From: Planctomycetota bacterium
Lineage (GTDB): Bacteria; Planctomycetota; UBA1135; UBA2386
Reading direction: 5' to 3'
DNA: 64,000 nucleotides
Assembly: GCA_016794425.1 (NCBI GenBank)
Contig: JAEUHR010000036.1
Location: forward strand, 1 to 64,000
Shown here: positions 43,847 through 58,667 of the stretch, piece after piece
Layout: every line of letters begins with the position of its first letter
How positions within the stretch are numbered: the stretch's first letter is position 1
Translations under genes and position numbers: made by a program
Notes under the pieces: generated by a model
What the model was told of the DNA's origin: nothing
The model's input: only the letters and a program-made list of their open reading frames with translations
Databases searched by the model: none

Positions 43847-44662
43847 GTGCAGACCTTCACCGACATCGTCCGCTACCGGTTCGTGCTCGAGAACCTGGTC
43901 GCGAAGAACCTGAAGACGCTGTACCGGAACATGGCGCTCGGGTTCTTCTGGTCGATCCTGAACCCGCTGGTGATGGCGATCGTGCTGACCGCGGTGCAGC
44001 TGCGGTTCTTCGGCGCGCGGCACGACTGGCCGAGCATGTTCCTGTGCGCGCTGATCCCGTACAATTTCTTCGCCTACTGCCTGTCGGGCTCCGCCTACTC
44101 GGTGACCGGCAACGCGAGCCTGGTGACGAAGGTGCGCTTCCCGCGCCAGATCCTGCCGGTGTCGGTGATCGTCACCAACCTCGTGCACTTCGCGATCCAG
44201 TCGTCGCTGGTGGTCGCGTCGCTGCTGTGGTTCCCGAAGATCGCCGACCCCGAAACCGGCGCGACCGTCGCGTGGTTCGGCTGGCAGCTGCTGTGGTTGC
44301 CGGTGATCCTGGTCGTCAACATCGGCCTCGTCGTCGGCGTGGGCCTGCTGGTCGCCGGCGCCAACGTCGTCTACCGCGACGTGCAGTACATCGTCGAGTC
44401 GGTGATGACCGTGATGTTCTGGCTGTGCCCGCTGGTCTACGACGGCGGCGCGATGCTCGCGAACGGCCCGCGCTGGCAGTTCTGGCTCTACTTCGCGAAC
44501 CCGCTGTCGGGCCTGCTCGACTCGTACCGCCGCGTGCTGTTCCACGGCACCGCGCCGGACCTCGGCGTGCTCGGGCTCGCGGCCCTGGTGACCGCGCTGC
44601 TCGGCGCCTGGGGCGTGCGCAGCTTCTGGAAGCACGAACACCGTTTCGCCGACCTGCTGTGA
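43847..44662 (+). CDS. wzm: Polysaccharide ABC exporter permease (Wzm type)
   Basis: Encodes 271 residues with six membrane helices. The family signature is clear: NLKTLYRNMALGFFWSILNPL before the first helix, CALIPYNFFAYCLSGSA, VRFPRQILPVSVI, and NVVYRDVQYIVESV before the last helices. Wzm permeases pass finished polysaccharides on lipid carriers across the inner membrane in the ABC-dependent O-antigen or capsule route. GTG 43847 is the only start before the conserved N-terminus. The stop lies right at the start of the ATPase gene. It opens the polysaccharide locus. Confidence 0.93.
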   Translation: MQTFTDIVRYRFVLENLVAKNLKTLYRNMALGFFWSILNPLVMAIVLTAVQLRFFGARHDWPSMFLCALIPYNFFAYCLSGSAYSVTGNASLVTKVRFPRQILPVSVIVTNLVHFAIQSSLVVASLLWFPKIADPETGATVAWFGWQLLWLPVILVVNIGLVVGVGLLVAGANVVYRDVQYIVESVMTVMFWLCPLVYDGGAMLANGPRWQFWLYFANPLSGLLDSYRRVLFHGTAPDLGVLGLAALVTALLGAWGVRSFWKHEHRFADLL

Positions 44663-45490: not shown

Positions 45491-46666
45491 ATGCTCCAGA
45501 GCGTGCCCCTGCAGCGCCCCTTCGTTTCCGCCGGCGGACACGCGTTCGTGGCTGAGATCCCCGTGGAGGCACGGCAGGCGCTCGCCGCTGGTTGCGTCGG
45601 TCTGGTGGCCGAGGACGGCAAGGTCGTGGGCCCGGCCGAAGCGCTGCACGATCACATCCGCGCGGCGGGTCGCGGCGCGTTCTCGGTCTGGGGCACGCAT
45701 GTCTACTTGTCGTCGACGGATTACAGCAACTGCAACCAGAACGGGCGTGGCTACGCGCTGCTGATCGTCGATGTCGGATCGCCCGCTCTGCGGGAGGCGC
45801 TGGCGCGTCGCGACGACCTGGTGCTGGACCTGCTGCATCGCAACCGCGAATACAACAACAGCGTGGTGGCGAACTTCCTCGGCTACCACCAGGTCACGAC
45901 TTCGCATCTGCGCCGCCACGGCCTCGCCACGCCGCGCGCCGCGCTGGAACTCGGCACCGGCCGGACGCCGTACACCGCGCTCCGTTTCCTCGCCGCCGGC
46001 GTCGAGCGGTTCGTCGCCAACGACGTGCAGACGATCGAACGGTCCTGGCCGGCCGCGCGGCTGCGTCAGCTCGCGGGTCTGCTCGACCTCGTCGACCAGG
46101 ACGCCGGCGAGCGGCTGCGGGCGCGCACGGTTCCAGCCGCGGACGGCGCGGGCAACGTGACGGTGCGCGGCCTGGAGATCGCCGACAGGTGTCCGTTCGA
46201 GCAGGCACCGATCGGCGGCGGCTTCGATCTGATCTTCTCGACCTCGGTGCTCGAACACGTCGGCCGGCCGCGTCAGGTCGTCGAGCGCATGCACGAGCTG
46301 CTGTGGTCGGGCGGTCACGTGTGGCACTGCATCGACTTGCGCGACCACCGCGACTTCGACCGACCCCTCGACTTCCTGCGGCTGACGGTGGAGCAGTACG
46401 CCGCAATCGACACGGAGAATCGGCTGCGAGCCAGCGACTGGTTGGATCTGTTCTGCGACTGCGGCTTCGAGATCGTCGACCGCCAGTACTCGACACTGCG
46501 GGCCGGCGGCAAGGGCGGCAACGCCGACCTCGTGCACGCATCGGTGCCGCCGGCGACACCGTGGGTCGACGACGCCCTGCGCGCGACGTTCCAGCCGCCG
46601 TTCGCCGCCATGGACGCGACCGACCTGTCGATCCTCGGCCTCACCGTGTTGTGTCGCAAACCGTGA
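45491..46666 (+). CDS. SAM-dependent methyltransferase with a novel N-terminal module
   Basis: Encodes 391 residues. Residues ~4-96 form a copy of the shared module: PLQRPFVSAGGHAF, then LVAEDGKVVGPAEALHDHIR, and SVWGTHVYLSSTDYSNCNQNG (given in part). The class I methyltransferase follows: motif I ALELGTGRTPYTALRFL near residue 155, VERFVANDVQ and motif IV FDLIFSTSVLEHVGRPRQ. The C-terminal part HVWHCIDLRDHRDFDRP fits family 11/UbiE-like enzymes. It probably methylates a sugar or glycan end. Its end overlaps the next start (GTGA). Codon choice is slightly more relaxed than in neighbours. Confidence 0.82.
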   Translation: MLQSVPLQRPFVSAGGHAFVAEIPVEARQALAAGCVGLVAEDGKVVGPAEALHDHIRAAGRGAFSVWGTHVYLSSTDYSNCNQNGRGYALLIVDVGSPALREALARRDDLVLDLLHRNREYNNSVVANFLGYHQVTTSHLRRHGLATPRAALELGTGRTPYTALRFLAAGVERFVANDVQTIERSWPAARLRQLAGLLDLVDQDAGERLRARTVPAADGAGNVTVRGLEIADRCPFEQAPIGGGFDLIFSTSVLEHVGRPRQVVERMHELLWSGGHVWHCIDLRDHRDFDRPLDFLRLTVEQYAAIDTENRLRASDWLDLFCDCGFEIVDRQYSTLRAGGKGGNADLVHASVPPATPWVDDALRATFQPPFAAMDATDLSILGLTVLCRKP

Positions 46667-48633
46667 GCGGGATCGCCGAAGAGGCTACACCGCCCGCGAT
46701 GCAGCGCGGCGACTTGCTGCTGCACCGTCACCTGCAGCAGCTCGGCCAGCCGGTCGTCGTGATATCCGCCGAGCCGGTGCCGGCGTGGTTGCGTTCGCTG
46801 CCTGGGCTCACCGAAGTGTTGTCGCCGGCCGCGTGCTGCGAATGGCGACCCACGACCGCCGCCGCGGTCGCCGTGTTGCCGGACGAAGCGGGGATCGATG
46901 CGGCCGTGCTCGCGACCTGGCAGAGCCATGGCGTGCGGCTCGCGCGACGTCACGGTTCCGGGTGGCGCGTCGCCGAGGGCCCCCTGCCGCGGTCCGTCGG
47001 TGGCTTCGCCGAGTGGTTCGTGCGCCGGCTGCCCGTCGTCGCGGGCTGGTTCGGCGTGCTGCCGTTGCAGGCGCCGTTCCGCCACGACGGCGGGCACTGC
47101 TGGTGGGTGTCGTTGCGTGGGCTGCGCCGGCGGCCGCCCGGGAATGCGCGTGTGCCGATGGTGTTCGAGGATGGCCGTCCGTTGCCGCACCCGGACAGCA
47201 TCCACGACGACATCCGCCGGCTTGGCGGTGGCCGCTATTCGGTGTGGGGCGACGGTCTCTACTTCTCCACCAGCGACGGCAGCGACCCGGCGCACAACGG
47301 TCGTCGCTACGAGGCGCGCATCGTGGTGCCGGGGGGGGCGGGCGAACTGACCGCACCCGAGCACGACGAGACGTCGTTCGCCGCCCATCTGGCCGGCCTC
47401 GCGCGCAACCGTTCGGGACCGCCGCCCGTGGGTCGCCGCGTGCTGATCGTCATCAGCTCGCTCGGGCCGGGCGGCGCCGAGCGCCAGTTCGCCTACCTCG
47501 TGCGGGGTCTGTGTGAACGTGGTTTCGAACCGGGCATCCTGTCGCTGGACGGCTTCGAGGGGCCGGCCGGTCACTACCTGTCGCTGCTGCGGGGCCTTCG
47601 CGTCGAGTTGCTCGACGGCAGTCGGGTGAACCCGGACTTCACCCCCGAGCGTGTCGGGGACGCGACCCGGTGTGCTGCCGCGGTCGAGGCACTGGTGCGC
47701 GCGCCGGACGTGTTCGCCAACGAACTGTTCCGCATCGCGTCGCACGTGTCCGTGTTCGCGCCGGACGTGCTCCATTGCGCCCTCGACAAGCCGAACGTGC
47801 TCGGCGCGATCGCCGGGCTGTGTGTCGGCGTGCCGCGCATCGTGCTGTCGCTGCGCAACGTGAACCCGAGCCACATCCCGAGGCTCGAACTGCCTTGGTT
47901 CCGGCGGTGGTACGGCGTGGTCGCCGGGCTGCGCGGCGTCGTGTTGTCGGCCAACTCTCGTGCCGGTGGTGCTGACTACGCGGCGTGGATCGGCGTACCG
48001 GTCGACAGGGTCGCCACCGTGCACAACGGTCTCGATGCCGATGCCGTGCGCGTGCCTGCCGAAGATGCAGTCACGGCGCTGCGACGCAGCCGCGGCCTCG
48101 CCGACGGGGATCCGGCGCTGGTGGGGGTGTTCCGCATCTCCGCCGAGAAGCGACCCGCGCTCTGGCTCGAGGTCGTGGCGGCGCTGCGGCAGCGCCTGCC
48201 GCGTCTGCACGCGTTCCACGTCGGCGACGGTCCGGACGCGGCTTCCATGGATGCGCGGATCGCCGAGCTGGGGCTCGGCGACGTGGTGCATCGGCTCGGC
48301 CGTCAGGCGGATCCTGCCGTGGCGATCTGCGCCGCCGACCTGCTGCTGCTCGTGTCCGAGTTCGAGGGCGTGCCGAACGTCGCGCTCGAAGCGCAATGGC
48401 TGCAGCGGCCGGTCGTCACGACCGCCGCCGGCGGCGCGGCCGAGGCCGTGCACGACGGGGTCACAGGCCGCGTCGTCGAGCTGCCGACGGCGGTGGCGCT
48501 GGCGGCCGCCTGCGCCGACCTGCTCGCCAATCGGGAACGGGCGCGGCAGATGGGCCAGGCCGGGCGCGCGTTCGTCGCGCGGGCCTTCGCCGTCGACCGC
48601 ATGGTCGACGAGAGCGTCGCGCTCTACCGGTGA
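46663..48633 (+). CDS. Family 4 glycosyltransferase with novel N-terminal modules
   Basis: Encodes 656 residues from GTG 46663, with the GTGA overlap; ATG 46699 is an alternative. Residues ~13-110 are a domain starting RGDLLLHRHLQQLGQPVVV. Residues ~134-224 are a copy of the shared module (PLQAPFRHDGGHCWW, HDDIRRLGGGRYSVWGDGL, then SDPAHNGRRYEARI). The GT-B fold follows from ~255: VLIVISSLGPGGAERQFAYL, with the C-terminal donor site EFEGVPNVALEAQWLQRPVV. Both upstream domains are also present in the AsnB fusion. It probably adds a sugar to the exported glycan. Confidence 0.85.
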   Translation: MSGIAEEATPPAMQRGDLLLHRHLQQLGQPVVVISAEPVPAWLRSLPGLTEVLSPAACCEWRPTTAAAVAVLPDEAGIDAAVLATWQSHGVRLARRHGSGWRVAEGPLPRSVGGFAEWFVRRLPVVAGWFGVLPLQAPFRHDGGHCWWVSLRGLRRRPPGNARVPMVFEDGRPLPHPDSIHDDIRRLGGGRYSVWGDGLYFSTSDGSDPAHNGRRYEARIVVPGGAGELTAPEHDETSFAAHLAGLARNRSGPPPVGRRVLIVISSLGPGGAERQFAYLVRGLCERGFEPGILSLDGFEGPAGHYLSLLRGLRVELLDGSRVNPDFTPERVGDATRCAAAVEALVRAPDVFANELFRIASHVSVFAPDVLHCALDKPNVLGAIAGLCVGVPRIVLSLRNVNPSHIPRLELPWFRRWYGVVAGLRGVVLSANSRAGGADYAAWIGVPVDRVATVHNGLDADAVRVPAEDAVTALRRSRGLADGDPALVGVFRISAEKRPALWLEVVAALRQRLPRLHAFHVGDGPDAASMDARIAELGLGDVVHRLGRQADPAVAICAADLLLLVSEFEGVPNVALEAQWLQRPVVTTAAGGAAEAVHDGVTGRVVELPTAVALAAACADLLANRERARQMGQAGRAFVARAFAVDRMVDESVALYR

Positions 48634-48730
48634 CTCGCTTCGGCCGCCGAGCAGTTCGTGATGAGCGGCGAGGTGTACGGCGACGGCGCAGCCGGCATGC
48701 TCGCCGGGGCCGGCCACCCGGCGCGGGGAG

Positions 48731-51700
48731 TCACGAAGGCGATCCGCGGTAGATGGCCAGCGTGTCGTCGACCATGCGCGGCAGCGAGAAGCGCTGCTGC
48801 ACGGCGGCATGGCCGGCGTCGCCCATGCGCGCGCGCAGCGCCGGGTCCTGCAGCAGCCCCGCGACCGCCGCGCCGAGTCCGTCGGCGTCGCCGACGTCGC
48901 ACAGCCTGCCGTGCACGCCGTCCTCGACGACCTCGACGCAGCCGCCGGCGCGCGTCGCGACGACCGGGCGGCGGAACCACATCGCCTCGAGCAAGGCGTT
49001 CGGCGTGCCTTCGATGCGCGAGGTCAGCAGCACGACGTCGGCGGTGCCGTGGATCGTCGCCACGTCGTGGCGACGGCCGACCAGGTGCAGGCGTGGTTCG
49101 ATCGCGAGCTCACGCGCCAGCTGTTCGACGTCGCGCTGCATCGGGCCGATGCCGGCCAGCACGGCGTGCAAGTCCGGCACGCGACGCAGCGCCGCCGCGA
49201 TCGCGCGCACGAACACCAGCGGCTGCTTCTCCTCGGCGAGCCGCAGCAGGCCGGCGCACAGCGGCGCCTGCAGCGGGATGCCGAACTCGGCGCGGAACGC
49301 CTGCCGTTCGGCGTCGCTCGAGCTGCCGAGGGCGGCGGTGTCGAGCCCGTTGCGCACCAGCCGGAAGCCCGGGTCGACGCCGAGCCAGGCGCGGTAGTCG
49401 TCGGCGCAGACGCGGCTGTTCGCGAACATGCGCACCCGCGGGCTCGTCGCCAACAGCCGGTAGTACGGTGCGAACCACGGCCGCAGCTGGTGCGGGTAGT
49501 GCGTCGGGTTGAAGCTGCGGATGCCGAGCGCCGCCAGCGGCACGCCGGCCAGCAGCGCGGCGATGCCGCCGCTGATGTTCGGCCCGTCGAGGCAGCAGTG
49601 CGCGACGTCGGGCTGCAGGGTCGCGAAGTGCGAGAACAGCCGCCAGACCTCGTCGCGCAGTCCCGCCGGCAGGCTCGCCAGCAGGCGCAGGCGCCGGTCG
49701 CAGCGCGCGGCCGCGCCGAGGGTGAACCGCGCCGCCGGGTGGTTGGCGGCGACCAGTTCGACGCCGGTGCCGTGCAGCAGCGCGCGGTAGTGGCCGGCGC
49801 TGCCGTCGAGGCCGGACAACGCGAGCACGCTGACGCGGTGGCCGCGGCGGTCGAGTTCGACGGCGAGGTTGCACAGCTGGCGTTCGGTGCCGCCGGGATG
49901 CAGCGCGCCGATCACCATCGCGATGCGGCTGCCGGTGCCGAGTTCCGGCACGTGCGGTGCGGGCTCGGCCGCGAGCTGCGCCAGTTCACGGTCGAACTCG
50001 GCCGGCGACGCCAGCGCGGGCTGCAGCTCGACGCCCTGGCGCGCGTCGTCGTGGGCCAGCGTCGAACCGGGCGGGTACAGCACCAGCTGGTAGGTGCGGC
50101 CGTTGCGGTTCGGGTTGCCGTTGTCGCTGGCGGCGAACCAGATCATGTCGTCCCAGACCGAGTAGCGGCCGAGGCCGAGCCGGCGCACGTCCTCGTGCAC
50201 CGCGTCGGCGGGGCCGAGCGCCGTGCCGTCCTCGAGCACGACCGGGCGCCAGCCCTGCTGCAGCAGCGCCAGCGGCACGCGCATGCGACGCAGTGACGCG
50301 AGCCAGCAGGCGCCGCCGTCGTGCGGGAACGGCCGGCGGAAGCGGAACCGCAGCGGCAGGGGCCCGGGCTGCCGACGCTGGCGCAGCCGTTCGAGGCCTT
50401 CGCGCGCATCGAGCGCCAGGTGCGCCAGCGGCGTGCGGCCGAGGAAGTGCAGCAGGCCGCCGCGCGTGCTCGACTGCAGCGCGACCAGGTAGCGGCGGCC
50501 GTTCGTGGTCGGATCGCTGTTGTCGCTGGCGGAGAACCACAGCCACTCGCCGTCGAGCGCGTGGCGGCCGCGGCCGAAGTGCACGATCGCCTGCGGGCTG
50601 CTGCCGTCGTGCGGCAGGCGGCGGTCGTTCTCGTAGACGACGAGCCGCGCGGTGCGGTCGAGGGCGCGCGCCCGCGCGAGCTTGGGCAGCGCGATGCGCC
50701 ACGCGAAGCCGCCCGCCGGTTCGATCGCGCCGGGCCGCGCCGGCAGCCGTTCGCCGAACAGCCGGTCGGCGAGACGCGGCGGCGTGCCGCCGCCGACGGT
50801 TGCGCTGGCGGCCGTGTCGCGCGCGCGCCAGCGGTCGCCGATGCGGTGCAGGATCGTCTGGCCGCGTTCCGACAGCGCGCCGACCACGTCGGCGTGCGCC
50901 TCGCGCAGCGGCGTCGTGAACACCGCCGGGCCCAGCGGCAGTCCGGCCAGCAGTGCGTGGTCGGGCGGTGCGGTGCCGTTCCAGTCGAGCACGCGGTTGT
51001 GCATGGGGGCCGGCGTCTCGGTCGGCTGCGGCGTCACCAGCAGCGAGCCGGCCGGCAGTTCGTGCACCCAGCTCGGCAGCTCGTCGGCGCAGAACACGAT
51101 CGGCGGCAGCGCCTGCGACCGCAGGTGCTGGCACAGCAGCAGGTCCTCCTGGCGGCAGCCGGTGCCGATCGCTTCGGCGAGCGGTCGCACCTCGATCGGC
51201 GCCGCGGTGGTCGCCGGTTCGCCGCGCCGCTGCGCGTGCTGGCGCAGCCAGATCTCGAGCACCAGCACCAGCCAGGCCTGGTAGAACGAGAAGTTGCCCG
51301 GGCTCGCGAGCCGCCGCGCGTACGCCGCGCGGCCCTTCGCGTCGATCCACTGCGCCAGCTTGCTGTCGCCGACCAGCACCAGCTCCTGCAGCCAGGCGAG
51401 CATCTTGTCGCGGCCCCAGCCGGTCTTGGTCGGCACGCCGAAGCCCATCTTGCGGCGGTCGAGCCACTGCCGCGGCAGGTAGCGCTGCGCGACCTCCTTC
51501 AGCACCAGCTTGCCCTGCGGGCCGAGCAGGCTGCCCGGTGCGTAGCAGTCGTCGACCGCGAGCTGCTCGGCGAACGCGGCCAGTTCGCGGCTCAGGAACG
51601 GCGTGCGCACCTCGAGCGAGTGCTGCATCGACATCCGGTCGACCTTGGGCAACACGGCGCCGGGCATGTAGTGCGCGGCGTCGTAGGCGCGCATGCGGTG

Positions 51701-53035
51701 CAGCAACGGCCCCGGGTCGCGGCCCATGCGGCGTCGCAGCGACGCCAGCAGCGCGGCCGTGCGGGGCGGCACCGCGCCGAACAGCTCGGCGAGGTGTTCG
51801 TCGCAGTGGATCAGCATGCGGCTGCCGAAGTACTGCCGCCCGGCGTCGAAGTCGGCGAGCCTGCTCTCGTCCTGCAGCGTCGCGAAGTAGCGGCCGTAGC
51901 CGCCGAACATCTCGTCGCCGCCGTCGCCGGACAGGCAGACCGTGACCTGCTCCTTGGCGATCTTCGACACCAGGAACGTCGGCAGGCACGAGCTGTCGCC
52001 GTTCGGTTCGTCGAGCACGGTGCCGATGTGGTGCATCAGCGGCAGCACGTCGAGTTCGAGCACGCGGTCGTGGTGGTCGGTGCCGAGGTGCTGCGCGACC
52101 TGGCGCGCGAACAGGTGTTCGGTCTCGTCGGGCGCGTTCTCGAAACCGATCGAGAATGTCTTCACGGTGCCGCCGAGCGCCTTCGTCATCAGCGCGACGA
52201 CCGTCGAGCTGTCGACGCCGCCGGACAGGAACGCACCGAGCGGCACATCGGCGATCATGCGGCGCCGGATCAGCCGCAGCAGGATCGCCTCGAGTTCTTC
52301 GGCCAGTTCGCCCATCGGCCGCGACGGCCGCACGCCGCCGCGCGGTGCGAACGCGAAGTGGCGGCCGATCCGCGTCTCGCCGCCGGCGTGCAGGCGCAGC
52401 CAGTGGCCGGGCTTCAGCTTCTGCGCGTGGCGGTAGATCGAGCGCGGCGCGTCGACGTACTGCAGCGCCAGGTACTCGGCGATCGTGTCGGCGTCGATCG
52501 CCGGATCGAAGCCCGGCACGCGCGTCAGGGCGTGCAGCTCACTGGCGAACGCGAACCAGCCCGGCCCCTGGCTCCAGTAGAGCGGCTTCTCGCCGAACGG
52601 ATCGCGCGCCAGCAGCAGCGTGCGCTCGGCGCTGTGCCAGTGCGCGAACGCGAACTGGCCGTCGAGCCGTTCGATCGCGCCTTCGCCGCGGCCGGCGAGC
52701 AGGTGCAGCAGCACCTCGGTGTCGCTGCGGGTCGCGAATGCGTGGCCCTGCGCCTCGAGTTCCTGCCGCAGCTCGAGGTAGTTGTAGATCTCGCCGTTGA
52801 ACGACAGCGCGTGGCGGCCGTCGCCGAGCACGAATGGCTGGTGGCCGCCGGAGCTGGTGTCGATGATCGACAGGCGCCGGTGCGCCAGCGCGCAGGCCCC
52901 GTCCGGCGACAGCCAGACGCCGCGGTCGTCCGGGCCGCGGTACGGCATGCTGTCGGCCATCGCCGCGGCGATGCGCGTACGTTCCTCGGGGCTCCACTTC
53001 CCCTCGAGGTCGACGATGCCCGCAATGCCGCACAT
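48731..53035 (-). CDS. Asparagine synthetase (glutamine-hydrolysing) fused to a family 4 glycosyltransferase
   Basis: Encodes 1434 residues in one uninterrupted frame. Residues 1-~610 are an AsnB: catalytic Cys2 (MCGIAGIVD), glutaminase site LSFNGEIYNYLELR, and the synthetase PP-loop FLSGGVDSSTV near residue 268 with CLSGDGGDEMFGGYGRYF. From ~629 come the DLLLCQHLRSQ domain shared with the neighbouring GT4, then two copies of the shared module (~774-854, ending SDPTTNGRRYLVAL; ~894-989, with LGRYSVWDDMIWF), then a complete GT4 (~1030-1434; ALHPGGTERQL, RIEGTPNALLEAMWFRRPVV). In polysaccharide clusters, AsnB-like proteins amidate uronic acids, so amidation coupled to transfer is a likely role. 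CAGAAT lies 12 nt before ATG. Confidence 0.87.
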   Translation of the reverse strand: MCGIAGIVDLEGKWSPEERTRIAAAMADSMPYRGPDDRGVWLSPDGACALAHRRLSIIDTSSGGHQPFVLGDGRHALSFNGEIYNYLELRQELEAQGHAFATRSDTEVLLHLLAGRGEGAIERLDGQFAFAHWHSAERTLLLARDPFGEKPLYWSQGPGWFAFASELHALTRVPGFDPAIDADTIAEYLALQYVDAPRSIYRHAQKLKPGHWLRLHAGGETRIGRHFAFAPRGGVRPSRPMGELAEELEAILLRLIRRRMIADVPLGAFLSGGVDSSTVVALMTKALGGTVKTFSIGFENAPDETEHLFARQVAQHLGTDHHDRVLELDVLPLMHHIGTVLDEPNGDSSCLPTFLVSKIAKEQVTVCLSGDGGDEMFGGYGRYFATLQDESRLADFDAGRQYFGSRMLIHCDEHLAELFGAVPPRTAALLASLRRRMGRDPGPLLHRMRAYDAAHYMPGAVLPKVDRMSMQHSLEVRTPFLSRELAAFAEQLAVDDCYAPGSLLGPQGKLVLKEVAQRYLPRQWLDRRKMGFGVPTKTGWGRDKMLAWLQELVLVGDSKLAQWIDAKGRAAYARRLASPGNFSFYQAWLVLVLEIWLRQHAQRRGEPATTAAPIEVRPLAEAIGTGCRQEDLLLCQHLRSQALPPIVFCADELPSWVHELPAGSLLVTPQPTETPAPMHNRVLDWNGTAPPDHALLAGLPLGPAVFTTPLREAHADVVGALSERGQTILHRIGDRWRARDTAASATVGGGTPPRLADRLFGERLPARPGAIEPAGGFAWRIALPKLARARALDRTARLVVYENDRRLPHDGSSPQAIVHFGRGRHALDGEWLWFSASDNSDPTTNGRRYLVALQSSTRGGLLHFLGRTPLAHLALDAREGLERLRQRRQPGPLPLRFRFRRPFPHDGGACWLASLRRMRVPLALLQQGWRPVVLEDGTALGPADAVHEDVRRLGLGRYSVWDDMIWFAASDNGNPNRNGRTYQLVLYPPGSTLAHDDARQGVELQPALASPAEFDRELAQLAAEPAPHVPELGTGSRIAMVIGALHPGGTERQLCNLAVELDRRGHRVSVLALSGLDGSAGHYRALLHGTGVELVAANHPAARFTLGAAARCDRRLRLLASLPAGLRDEVWRLFSHFATLQPDVAHCCLDGPNISGGIAALLAGVPLAALGIRSFNPTHYPHQLRPWFAPYYRLLATSPRVRMFANSRVCADDYRAWLGVDPGFRLVRNGLDTAALGSSSDAERQAFRAEFGIPLQAPLCAGLLRLAEEKQPLVFVRAIAAALRRVPDLHAVLAGIGPMQRDVEQLARELAIEPRLHLVGRRHDVATIHGTADVVLLTSRIEGTPNALLEAMWFRRPVVATRAGGCVEVVEDGVHGRLCDVGDADGLGAAVAGLLQDPALRARMGDAGHAAVQQRFSLPRMVDDTLAIYRGSPS

Positions 53036-53179: not shown

Positions 53180-54406
53180 ATGGCTCCGCGCGCGCTGCGC
53201 TTCCTGTTCGCCCGGCGCGGCGAGAGCCTCGGCACGCTGGTCGGCCTGTTCTGGCGGTCGTTGCGCGCCGAAGGCCTCGGGCCGACCTGGCGCCGGCTCC
53301 GCAGCTACGTCGGCACGGTCGCGGCCGCGGCCGAGACGCCGCTGCCGCCGCGGTCGACGCAGAAGGACGTGTTGTGGGTCGCGGGCTGCCCCGGCCACCC
53401 GCGGCGGTGGCGCTGCGAGCACGCGCTCGAGCGGCTGCAGCTGGCGGGCGGCAGCGGCGACGTCGTCGACTGGCCGGCGGTGCCGCTGGCCGACTACCTG
53501 GACTGCTACCGGACGTTCGTGCTGCAGCGCGTGCCGCACGAGCCGTCGGTCGCGGCGTTCGTGGCGGCCGCGCGCGCGGCCGGCAAGCGCGTCGTCGTCG
53601 ACGTCGACGACCTGGTGATCCACGAACGCTACGGTCCCGAGCTGCCGATCCTGGCCGGCTACGGCGAACTCGGCCGCGAGCTGTACGTGCAGCAGCTGCG
53701 CCGCATCGGCCAGGTGCTGGCGCTGGTCGAGGCCGCGCAGGCGGCGACGGCGACGCTGGCGCGCGAGCTGCAGCGCTGCTTCCCGCACCTGCAGGTCGAG
53801 GTCGTGCGCAACGTCGCCAGCCGCGCGATGGTCGAGCGCAGCGCCGCCGCGCTCGGCGTCGCCGCCGACCGGGCCGAGGACGGCACCGTCACGCTGGGCT
53901 ACTTCGCCGGCACGCGCACGCACGACGCCGACCTGGGGACGATCGCCGACGCGCTGGCCGCGGTGCTGGCGGCGCGGCCGGCCGCGCGCCTGCTGCTGGT
54001 GGGCGAGGTCGAACCGCCGGCGGCGCTGCGGCCGTTCGCGGCGCGCATCGAGCGGCGGCCGCCGGTGCCGTGGCCCGAGCTGCCGGCGCTGCTGCGCCGA
54101 GCCGACGTGCACCTGGTGCCGCTGACCGACACCCTGTTCACCGCCTGCAAGAGCGAGCTGAAGTGGGTCGAGGCGGCACTGGTGGGGCGACCCGTGGTCG
54201 CCGCGGCGGTGGGGCCGTACCGCGACTGCGTGCGCCCCGGCCAGAACGGCTGGCTCGCGGCCGACGCCGCGGCGTTCGCGGCGGCGCTGCTGGCGGCGAT
54301 CGACGACCCGGCGGCGCGCGTGCGGCTCGGCGCTGCGGCGCGCGCCGAGGTGCTGGCTCAGTGGACCACGGCCGCCGGTGCGGCTCGGCCGCAGACCTCG
54401 GCGTAG
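53180..54406 (+). CDS. Family 4-like glycosyltransferase
   Basis: Encodes 408 residues. The N-terminal domain has VLWVAGCPGHPRRWRCEHALERL and RVVVDVDDLVIHERYG. The C-terminal GT-B domain has LGYFAGTRTHDADLGTIADAL (an acceptor-side motif seen in GT4 proteins) and the donor end ELKWVEAALVGRPVVAA with PGQNGWLAAD. The classic EGxPxxxLEA motif is reduced to SELKWVEAAL. Its last 49 bp overlap the convergent neighbouring glycosyltransferase gene. Role: sugar addition in surface-polysaccharide assembly. Confidence 0.85.
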   Translation: MAPRALRFLFARRGESLGTLVGLFWRSLRAEGLGPTWRRLRSYVGTVAAAAETPLPPRSTQKDVLWVAGCPGHPRRWRCEHALERLQLAGGSGDVVDWPAVPLADYLDCYRTFVLQRVPHEPSVAAFVAAARAAGKRVVVDVDDLVIHERYGPELPILAGYGELGRELYVQQLRRIGQVLALVEAAQAATATLARELQRCFPHLQVEVVRNVASRAMVERSAAALGVAADRAEDGTVTLGYFAGTRTHDADLGTIADALAAVLAARPAARLLLVGEVEPPAALRPFAARIERRPPVPWPELPALLRRADVHLVPLTDTLFTACKSELKWVEAALVGRPVVAAAVGPYRDCVRPGQNGWLAADAAAFAAALLAAIDDPAARVRLGAAARAEVLAQWTTAAGAARPQTSA

Positions 54407-55533
54407 ATGCGCTGCAGCCGCGCCGCGGTGACCGCGAACGAGAACGTGGTCTCGATGCGCCGGCGGCCGGCTGTGCCGAGCCGCGCGCGGTGCGCCGGAT
54501 CGCCGGCCAGCCGGTCGAGTTCGGCCGCGAGCGCCGGCGCGTCGTCGCTCGGCACCAGCACGCCGCTGCCGTCGGCGACCACGTCGGTGCAGCCGCCGAT
54601 GCGCGTCGCGATCGACGGCAGGCCGCAGCTCATCGCCTCGAGCAGCGCGTTCGGCAGACCCTCGCGGCGGCTCGGGAACACGAACGCGTCGGCGGCGGCG
54701 TAGAAGCCGAGCGGGTCGGTGCGTTCGCCCGCGAAGTGCACGCGGTCGGCGATGCCGAGGTCCTGCGCGGTCGCCGCCAGCCGCTCGCGTTCGGGGCCGT
54801 CGCCGACCACCAGCAGCCGGCCGTGCCGCGCCACCGTGCTGGCGGCCCACGCGGCCAGCAGCACGTCCATGCCCTTGCGCTGCACGAGGCGGCCCACGAA
54901 CAGCGCCGCGAACTCGCCGTCGGCCAGCTGCAGCGCCGTGCGCGCGGCTGCGCGCGCGGCCGCGGCCGGCGGCGCGAACCGTTCGGTGTCGACGCCGTTC
55001 GGCGCCAGCACCGCCTGGTCGGGACGGAAGCCGCAGGCGATCGCCTCCTGCCGGATCGACTCGGACAGGCACAGCAGGCGATCGGCGCGCAGCAGCCAGC
55101 GGAAGAACAGCCGGAAGTGCAGCGAGCGCTGGTCGCGGTATTCGCGCACGTCCTGCTCGGTCGCGACCTTGACCAGCACCGGCACGCCGAGCAGGCGGCC
55201 GATGCGCGCGCAGCAGGCGGCCAGGAACGTCAGTGCGTGGCAGTGCACGACGTCGTACTCGCGCCGGTGGTGCTGCAGGAACCGCAGGAACGCGACGAAC
55301 AGCGCGGCCCAGTTGCGGCGGTGCGGCGGCGAGTGCGGCAACCGCAGGATCGCGACGCCGTCGCGTTCTTCGCGCGGCGCGTGGCCCCACGGGTTGTTCG
55401 ACAACAGGAACGTCGGCACGCCGCGGCTGCGGAAGTGCCGCGCCAGCGACAGCGCCTGCAGTTCGTAGCCGCCGATGCGGTCGAAGTCGGGCACGACCAT
55501 GACCGGGCGCAGGGCTGGCGGCGGCGATTCCAT
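54358..55533 (-). CDS. Family 4 glycosyltransferase
   Basis: Encodes 391 residues. It is a standard GT-B enzyme: acceptor-domain start VMVVPDFDRIGGYELQALSLARHF, linker LAPNGVDTERFAPP, ALFVGRLVQRKGMDVLLAAW, and the donor-site FVFPSRREGLPNALLEAMSCGLP, with the EGLPNALLEA signature. The C-terminal end overlaps the convergent glycosyltransferase gene by 49 bp, so both proteins share DNA on opposite strands. It lies 5 bp downstream of the next gene in the same direction, and the two are likely one transcript. Confidence 0.92.
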   Translation of the reverse strand: MESPPPALRPVMVVPDFDRIGGYELQALSLARHFRSRGVPTFLLSNNPWGHAPREERDGVAILRLPHSPPHRRNWAALFVAFLRFLQHHRREYDVVHCHALTFLAACCARIGRLLGVPVLVKVATEQDVREYRDQRSLHFRLFFRWLLRADRLLCLSESIRQEAIACGFRPDQAVLAPNGVDTERFAPPAAAARAAARTALQLADGEFAALFVGRLVQRKGMDVLLAAWAASTVARHGRLLVVGDGPERERLAATAQDLGIADRVHFAGERTDPLGFYAAADAFVFPSRREGLPNALLEAMSCGLPSIATRIGGCTDVVADGSGVLVPSDDAPALAAELDRLAGDPAHRARLGTAGRRRIETTFSFAVTAARLQRIYAEVCGRAAPAAVVH

Positions 55534-55538
55534 CGGCG

Positions 55539-56780
55539 TCAGCGGTGCCGGGCGTCACGCAGGATGCGCGCGATCGTCGGCGCGTGGTGGCGGCGATCGA
55601 AGCGCTGCACGGCGCGCGTGCGGCCGTTCGCGCCGAGCCGGCGGCGCCGCGCCGGGTCCTGCAGCAGCGCCGCCAACGCGTCGCACCACGCGCCGTCGCC
55701 GTCGGCGTAGAGGCCGCACTCGCCGTCGGCGCCGCCGGTCGCCGGATTGGCGCCGACCGGCGACGCGACGAACGGCACGCCGCAGGCCATGTACTGCACC
55801 ATCTTGAACGCCGCCTTGCCGGCGGCCCAGGCGTCGTCGTCGAGCGGCATGATGCCGACGTCGAACTGCTGGATGCGCTCGACCTCGCCGTCTTGCCGCC
55901 ATTCGACGAACTCGAGCGAGTCGGGCAGGCCGGCCAGCTGGTCCGGCGGGACGCGGTTGCAGACCACGCGCAGCACGAAGTCGCAGCGTTCGGCCAGCCG
56001 CCGCAGCGAAGGACCGATGCGGCGCAGGTAGTGCAGGTTGCCGGACGTGCCGACCCAGCCGACGACGGGCCGCGCTGCGGGCGGCCGTTCGGCCGCCGGT
56101 CGGAACTCGTCGGTGCACAGCGTCGTCGGCACCACGTGCACCGAGGCGGTGTGCCGGCGCGCGAACGCCGCCAGGTGGTCGTTGGCGGCGATCACCGACG
56201 TCGCCAGCGCGCAGATGCCGGCGATCTTGTCGTGCAGCGCCGCATCGATGCCGCCGCCGCCTTCGTTCCACGGCGGCTGCACGAAGATCGCGTCGTCGAA
56301 GTCGAACACGACGTGGCGGTTGTAGAGCAGCAGTTCGTGTTCGAGCCGCGACGCCGGCAGCGCCTGCAGGTCGCGCTGCAGCAACACGACGCCGCGGCCG
56401 GCCAACGCGCGGAAGTCGGCGCGCCGGTGGCGGCGCTGCTCCCAGAACCCGGCGTGCGCCTGCAGCATCGCCAGCCGCGGCCAGCGGCGGTAGCGGCGCT
56501 GCCACGCGTCGGTGGCCGTGAAGTACTTGCCCGGCCGTGACGGGTAGACCGTGCAGTGCAGGCCGAGCTCCTCGAGCAGCGGCACGTATTGCAGCGCGCG
56601 GTAGCGGGCCGCCGGCGACAGCCCGTGCACGGGGTCCGCTTCGACCAGCAGGTGCGCCTCGTCGACGGCGGGCGGCGGCGGCGCCGCGGCCCGGCGGCTG
56701 GCCGTGACGCCGAGTGCCGTGGCCCGCAGCACGTCGCAACCGAAGCGCGCAGCGGCGAGCGCACGGGCAAGGGGGCGCAT
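55539..56780 (-). CDS. Family 4-like glycosyltransferase
   Basis: Encodes 413 residues. Visible features are the AARYRALQYVPLLEELGLHC start of the acceptor domain, FDFDDAIFVQPPWNEGGGG, the RPVVGWVGTSGNLHYLRRI motif and the donor-side KAAFKMVQYMACGVPFVASP with a following NPATGGADGECGLY. It belongs to the same broad group as the 53.2-kb enzyme (GT4 with the GTxxNxHYL motif). The ATG at 56780 follows a TAGCCT box by 9 nt. It appears to lead the two-gene unit with the following glycosyltransferase. Confidence 0.88.
   Translation of the reverse strand: MRPLARALAAARFGCDVLRATALGVTASRRAAAPPPPAVDEAHLLVEADPVHGLSPAARYRALQYVPLLEELGLHCTVYPSRPGKYFTATDAWQRRYRRWPRLAMLQAHAGFWEQRRHRRADFRALAGRGVVLLQRDLQALPASRLEHELLLYNRHVVFDFDDAIFVQPPWNEGGGGIDAALHDKIAGICALATSVIAANDHLAAFARRHTASVHVVPTTLCTDEFRPAAERPPAARPVVGWVGTSGNLHYLRRIGPSLRRLAERCDFVLRVVCNRVPPDQLAGLPDSLEFVEWRQDGEVERIQQFDVGIMPLDDDAWAAGKAAFKMVQYMACGVPFVASPVGANPATGGADGECGLYADGDGAWCDALAALLQDPARRRRLGANGRTRAVQRFDRRHHAPTIARILRDARHR

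Positions 56781-57248: not shown

Positions 57249-58667
<1,419 letters not shown>

Follow-up and report, generated by a model that had tools for sequence, protein, structure and literature searches.

A recurring module in a polysaccharide locus

We analysed a stretch of 64,000 nucleotides (the window) from a Planctomycetota bacterium (assembly GCA_016794425.1, contig JAEUHR010000036.1, forward strand), in which three neighbouring genes of a polysaccharide locus, between positions 45491 and 53035, carry copies of a module of about 85 residues. The genes encode a class I S-adenosylmethionine (SAM) methyltransferase, a glycosyltransferase of family GT4, and a fusion of an AsnB-type amidotransferase with a second GT4 domain; the first two carry one copy each and the fusion carries two (Table 1). 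A profile search recovered all four copies, without internal stops. The four are themselves rows of the six-row search profile, so the independent measure of their kinship is BLAST: the GT4 copy, used as a single query sequence, finds the other three at E values of 7e-22, 2e-13 and 5e-12, which at the sequence level excludes chance likeness. Identity to the GT4 copy in the alignment is 37-52% across the copies. The most divergent of them, copy 1 of the AsnB fusion, lacks the SxW motif, yet the same core fold is predicted for it.

The genome holds two extra copies on other contigs. One (contig C59) lies between a SPASM-like segment and a radical SAM domain in a 656-residue protein; the other (contig C15) lies in a PMT-like protein, a membrane glycosyltransferase, where it occupies the loop that follows membrane helix 1.

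Table 1. Module copies, their genes and neighbouring features in the window (aa, amino acids; pLDDT, predicted local distance difference test; pTM, predicted template modelling score)
Feature	Position	Strand	Evidence or remark
Module copy, methyltransferase	45500..45772	+	BLAST E 1.8e-13 from GT4 copy; profile E 4.8e-38
Module copy, GT4 protein	47059..47328	+	Profile search; structure predicted, pLDDT 90.3, pTM 0.81
Module copy 1, AsnB fusion, most divergent	50471..50746	-	BLAST E 5.1e-12; model pLDDT 95.3, pTM 0.85
Module copy 2, AsnB fusion, preceding its GT4 domain	50072..50359	-	BLAST E 6.9e-22; profile E 2.7e-37
N-terminal module + class I SAM methyltransferase, 391 aa	45491..46666	+	Methyltransf_11/12/23 within residues 231-329
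N-terminal domain + module + GT4 glycosyltransferase, 656 aa	46663..48633	+	Glycos_transf_1 E 1.4e-25
Uncharacterised N-terminal domain (~113 aa) of GT4 protein	46699..47037	+	Also in AsnB fusion
AsnB-type amidotransferase + N-terminal domain + module 1 + module 2 + GT4, 1434 aa	48731..53035	-	Asn_synthase, GATase_6 and Glyco_trans_1_4 matches (see text)
GT4-type N-terminal domain inside AsnB fusion	~50747..51058	-	Likeness to GT4 residues 6-216 via relatives; borders by eye
ABC-2 type exporter permease, Wzm-like, without module	43847..44662	+	ABC2_membrane 5e-15; 91% identity, same order in sister genome G710
ABC exporter ATPase, Wzt-like, 253 aa	44662..45423	+	ABC_tran 5e-20; only ATPase domain found
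Three more glycosyltransferase genes of the locus, without module	53198..56780	.	Domain scan and comparison with relatives

Family searches and predicted fold

No family in Pfam-A or NCBIfam matched the 84 copies scanned: the chance matches in Pfam-A (E 0.03-0.3) each occurred in one member, and in NCBIfam one member matched the LigD phosphoesterase domain at 0.0025, with the rest above 0.01. An 84-sequence profile drew one match, at E 1.1, from the PDB sequences. The module copies were also without a match in PHROGs, where a methyltransferase from a viral contig matches in its methyltransferase part only. No description of the module was found in the literature, and the string NSDPRTNGR occurs in no paper of the searched library. 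TviE/PRK15179 was rejected as the identity of the module, since the match covers the glycosyltransferase part and not the module.

AlphaFold2 gave confident models of the isolated GT4 copy and AsnB copy 1 (scores in Table 1), with the same core order of strand, strand, helix, strand, strand, strand; beyond this core, AsnB copy 1 has one more helix, within the variable loop, and the GT4 copy one more strand, at its N-terminus. Foldseek comparison of the two models with the PDB gave best E values of 0.36 and 0.12 and, among the matches listed, TMq values of at most 0.46; none was significant, and the matches to aminopeptidase N, Shr HID2, titin and fluorinase were rejected as lying below significance. 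With confident models of the module on its own, and its presence on lyases, glycosyltransferases and a sulfatase (see below), the module is a discrete folding unit within carbohydrate-active enzymes.

An earlier, sequence-only reading of this DNA had described four copies in three genes and had assigned them to no named family. The copies stand, with borders within a few residues of those first given; the Pfam search found nothing to refute the absence of a family, which extends to NCBIfam, PHROGs and the PDB, and the two modelled copies agree in the order of their core secondary structure. We conclude that the module represents a genuine domain family that the sources searched do not describe, spread widely but thinly and without a match among solved folds.

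Relatedness of the carriers within the window

The AsnB fusion and the neighbouring GT4 protein share a layout of N-terminal domain, module and GT4 domain; in the fusion, both modules precede the second GT4 domain, with which the protein ends. Compared through relatives, the last ~535 residues of the fusion are about 39-43% identical to the neighbouring GT4 protein, and residues 6-216 of the GT4 protein are 30-34% identical to the N-terminal domain plus module 1 of the relatives' AsnB fusions. Judged by these comparisons, the fusion consists of an AsnB protein and a GT4 paralogue in which the module occurs twice. As its GT4 part is paralogous to the neighbouring GT4 protein, the two genes are not independent carriers, and the methyltransferase is, on this evidence, the only independent carrier within the window. 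The view of the sequence-only reading that the three carriers differ completely is therefore not supported. Its broader proposal, that the module is mobile between unrelated catalytic domains, loses the AsnB/GT4 pair as an argument; it survives through the methyltransferase and, very strongly, through the other genomes described below.

The fusion has Pfam matches to Asn_synthase (1.6e-75), GATase_6 (3.3e-42) and Glyco_trans_1_4 (2.1e-27). An assembly artefact was considered as its origin and rejected, since the full-length fusion is present in three other genomes, all relatives (83, 75 and 65% identity). An amidotransferase and a glycosyltransferase within one 1434-residue protein is an unusual enzyme pairing.

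The architecture of the window GT4 protein is repeated in a sister genome, G710 (55% identity, 664 residues), and at another locus, L044. Its N-terminal domain (window copy) has no match in Pfam. Two GT4 proteins of Deltaproteobacteria have a region of similar length (~110 residues) ahead of their module and GT4 domain. The GT4 gene of the window has a GTG start that overlaps the stop of the methyltransferase gene; in G710 (locus L176) the GT4 gene comes immediately after the ABC (ATP-binding cassette) ATPase gene, and the methyltransferase gene is missing from between them. Other module genes are found in the corresponding clusters of relatives; they encode proteins in which the module alone follows a membrane helix, membrane proteins with the module and a GDSx motif resembling SGNH hydrolases, and a module membrane protein with a transglutaminase-like motif (the last two types read from the motif, with no Pfam match).

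Carriers and distribution in other genomes

In a scan of bacteria and archaea at one genome per species, at least 49 loci with the module were found, a lower bound because the search pattern was narrow. They lie in Planctomycetota, Pseudomonadota (including Alphaproteobacteria), Myxococcota and other Deltaproteobacteria, Bacteroidota, Armatimonadota, Acidobacteriota, Verrucomicrobiota, Lentisphaerota and Chloroflexota. Within any one group the module is thinly spread: it is present in 13 of 294 genomes of the window's phylum and 4 of 61 relatives of the window genome (own genome counted in both), in 3 of 240 genomes of the class of a Magnetospirillum (centre genome counted), and in the class of a Pedobacter in the centre genome itself out of 149. 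The number of copies per genome ranges from 1 to 10, with a single copy in 12 of the 29 genomes searched whole.

By Pfam, the carriers include GT4, GT41-like (a weak match), PMT_2 (below cut-off), methyltransferase, PhyH, sulfatase, GDSL, phosphodiesterase, Gfo/Idh/MocA and transglutaminase core proteins, radical SAM proteins with a SPASM or B12 domain, a protein with PKD and CBM6, and TPR proteins; there are also lyases, namely pectate lyases of two families (Pectate_lyase_4 and Pec_lyase) and PcRGLX. Several carriers have no Pfam match. The module may be N-terminal, C-terminal, internal, in tandem or alone. A crude hydropathy scan placed a hydrophobic segment just upstream of the module in many carriers (among them sulfatase, PMT-like, membrane glycosyltransferase and module-only proteins) and in no GT4, GT41, methyltransferase or radical SAM carrier; given this division by carrier type, the module seems to act on either side of the membrane. 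The commonest carriers are transglutaminase-like proteins (fourteen loci), several with an upstream hydrophobic segment, whose substrate is not obviously a glycan.

A cluster of Magnetospirillum SS-4 (G303:C56) contains eight copies within about 27 kb, together with AsnB, WbqC, sugar dehydratase and radical SAM genes. At five Pedobacter/Arcticibacter loci the module is found on an exported pectate-lyase-like (PL1-type) protein with conserved neighbours (GT4, AsnB, epimerase, GT4, Polysacc_synt_2), and the four of these genomes that were searched whole (G298, G301, G312, G314) contain exactly one copy; there is thus no second module to act as a pairing partner. A lyase encoded inside a synthesis cluster would be expected to meet the polymer of that cluster.

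The module is also found on mobile and viral DNA. A Solidesulfovibrio plasmid encodes a protein with a transmembrane segment, the module and a GDSL domain amid insertion sequence elements and glycosyltransferases, and putatively viral IMG/VR contigs carry the module on methyltransferases and on membrane-anchored module-only proteins. Five of the IMG/VR loci, on contigs from several metagenomes, encode near-identical methyltransferases with a C-terminal module. A search of a viral structure library gave five significant matches (E 2e-9 to 6e-8), all to giant-virus proteins of Harvfovirus and Hyperionvirus (A0A3G5A4X5, A0A3G5ADE5, A0A3G5A2W3, A0A3G5AEI9, A0A3G5AAL9; TMq 0.73-0.81, 29-42% identity). 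Judged by this structural match, they are true relatives of the module. The carriers are named as galacturonosyltransferase 6-like, radical SAM, glutamine amidotransferase type 2 and methyltransferase, with one unnamed, a partner set nearly equal to that of the window genome. Weaker matches were to phage proteins: those at ranks 6-10 have a probability of 0.99-1.00, E values of 2e-3 to 3e-2 and 10-16% identity, and with rank 13 included the ranges of probability and identity are 0.89-1.00 and 10-18%; one of these proteins is named xylosidase and one right-handed beta helix. These could be distant relatives on tail proteins.

Conserved residues and the module tree

Across phyla and hosts, three residues are invariant (E39, D75 and Y86, 100%; numbering of the GT4 copy) and about a dozen nearly so, many of them polar: D78, N82 and S72 are conserved at 96%, S74 and S77 at 92%, R84 and W65 at 90%, and H51 at 86%. 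In a tree built from 111 modules, 47 changes are needed for the host label (set by hand from Pfam and similarity), against 84.5 in shuffles. In multi-copy genomes, the genome label requires 50 changes against 57.8, and the host label 37 against 56.2. The copies thus track enzyme type more than genome and have been exchanged repeatedly. The tree rests on few columns, and 61 of its 108 forks are open, so that we do not claim individual transfers.

Possible function of the module

We favour, with a probability of about 0.6, the reading that the module is a small lectin-like glycan-binding accessory domain of an uncatalogued family; it probably represents a new type of glycan-binding module. The conserved residues (E39, H51, R55, W65, S72, S74, D75, S77, D78, N82, R84, Y86) would form the glycan site, and the ligand would most plausibly be a product of the local gene cluster, either the polymer or a lipid-linked intermediate. 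In the cytoplasm the module could then hold glycosyltransferases, methyltransferases and other enzymes on the nascent chain; outside, it could keep lyases, sulfatases, esterases and module-only proteins with a membrane anchor attached to the chain after its export.

The argument begins with the carriers. Carriers on the two sides of the membrane would call for a ligand that is found on both, which is true of an exported glycan. If one ligand occurs inside and outside the cell, is met by enzymes that make, decorate and cut, and can be read by a lone copy, the simplest candidate is the glycan itself. A large share of the carriers have glycan chemistry, and not one catalytic type, in common. The free position of the module (terminal, internal or stand-alone) resembles that of binding modules, and the conserved polar residues, with one tryptophan and one tyrosine, would suit a sugar site. 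At the window locus itself the module genes differ by species, a methyltransferase here and membrane-anchored module-only and other membrane proteins in the relatives, which also points to a glycan. Further support comes from the lone copies on lyases inside the Pedobacter/Arcticibacter synthesis clusters and from the giant-virus proteins that share the fold. Of the roles suggested by the sequence-only reading (binding of the growing glycan, its lipid carrier or a scaffold), glycan binding thus fits best, and the lipid carrier is less likely, with secreted lyases among the carriers.

Several observations weigh against glycan binding. No solved carbohydrate-binding module (CBM) or lectin matches by sequence or fold; some carriers (transglutaminase-like, PhyH, TPR and oxidoreductase proteins) are without an obvious glycan link; and in the module tree copies group by host type more than by genome, so that the copies of one locus need not share a ligand. 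The many copies at some loci, such as the eight of Magnetospirillum SS-4, would also be expected of an assembly tag that draws the enzymes of a locus into one complex, by binding of modules to one another or to a shared partner. This is the main rival, and we consider it unlikely, though deserving of attention: it would account for the presence of the module on several adjacent genes, for the hub-like look of tandem and module-only proteins and for an architecture kept in sister species, but the single-copy genomes, including those with secreted Pedobacter pectate lyases, show that module-module pairing is not the general function. Carriers on both membrane sides also speak against a tag, as does the conservation of the same polar residues across phyla, which is unusual for a scaffold surface.

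That the ligand is not a glycan chain but a small or lipid-linked molecule common to the carriers (a polyprenyl-phosphate carrier, a nucleotide sugar or a metal) seems improbable to us. The conserved loop SDxSDPxxNGR, acidic and rich in asparagine, might be able to bind a metal or phosphate, and several carriers are membrane proteins; against this, secreted lyases and sulfatases handle neither lipid carriers nor nucleotide sugars. We give very little credence to a neutral or structural cap, such as a spacer or an aid to solubility, that recombination has spread between adjacent genes. Its appeal lies in the great variety of hosts and positions and in the patchy distribution seen among the relatives of the window genome; the invariant and nearly invariant residues, many polar, and the clustering by host type on the tree are difficult to reconcile with it.

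Glycan binding by the module can be compared with several known systems. Like the CBMs of polysaccharide lyases and hydrolases, it is a small beta-rich accessory domain that occurs on lyases and at any position, and in one carrier it stands beside PKD and CBM6. It differs from them in having no sequence or fold match in Pfam or the PDB and in being present also on cytosolic biosynthetic enzymes, on which, to our knowledge, CBMs are rarely found. The carbohydrate-binding domain of Wzt, the O-antigen ABC exporter, recognises the glycan of its own locus (PMC9445017). The window locus also has an ABC exporter; however, the Wzt domain belongs to the exporter ATPase, and here the module is found on synthetic enzymes. 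No Pfam match to the Wzt domain was found in the module copies, and none in the window ATPase. In GalNAc-transferases, a ricin-type lectin domain fused to the glycosyltransferase directs the enzyme to its partly glycosylated product; the role proposed for the module is similar, although that domain belongs to another family and is confined to one enzyme family, where the module is found on many. The module would thus work like the GalNAc-transferase lectin domain or the Wzt carbohydrate-binding domain while being unrelated to either. WbdD has a coiled coil with a scaffold role, which, unlike the module, is not beta-rich and is not common to several enzymes. It forms a non-catalytic extension of this polysaccharide methyltransferase in E. 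coli O9a (PMC3482155). The giant-virus proteins share the fold of the module; they are viral and are known here through the structural match.

More tentatively, and at somewhat below even odds, we suggest that this glycan-reader domain, with a fold unseen in solved structures, could be a locus-wide address tag, which bacteria, phages and giant viruses fit to the enzymes that build, decorate and cut one polysaccharide on both sides of the membrane, so that new enzymes would join a pathway by acquiring the module. The module, which is found largely in glycan loci and recurs there in several phyla, offers a handle on uncharacterised enzymes, as a protein that carries it becomes a candidate glycan enzyme. 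If it does bind the chain, it would give a general answer to how soluble enzymes locate nascent or exported polysaccharide, and would serve as a targeting domain that can be transplanted. Giant viruses have the module on almost the same types of enzyme, which suggests that genes of glycan pathways have moved between bacteria and these viruses.

Adjoining gene

A PaaA/PaaC-like protein (57249-58667) adjoins the polysaccharide locus and is 88.6% identical over 193 residues in genome G711.

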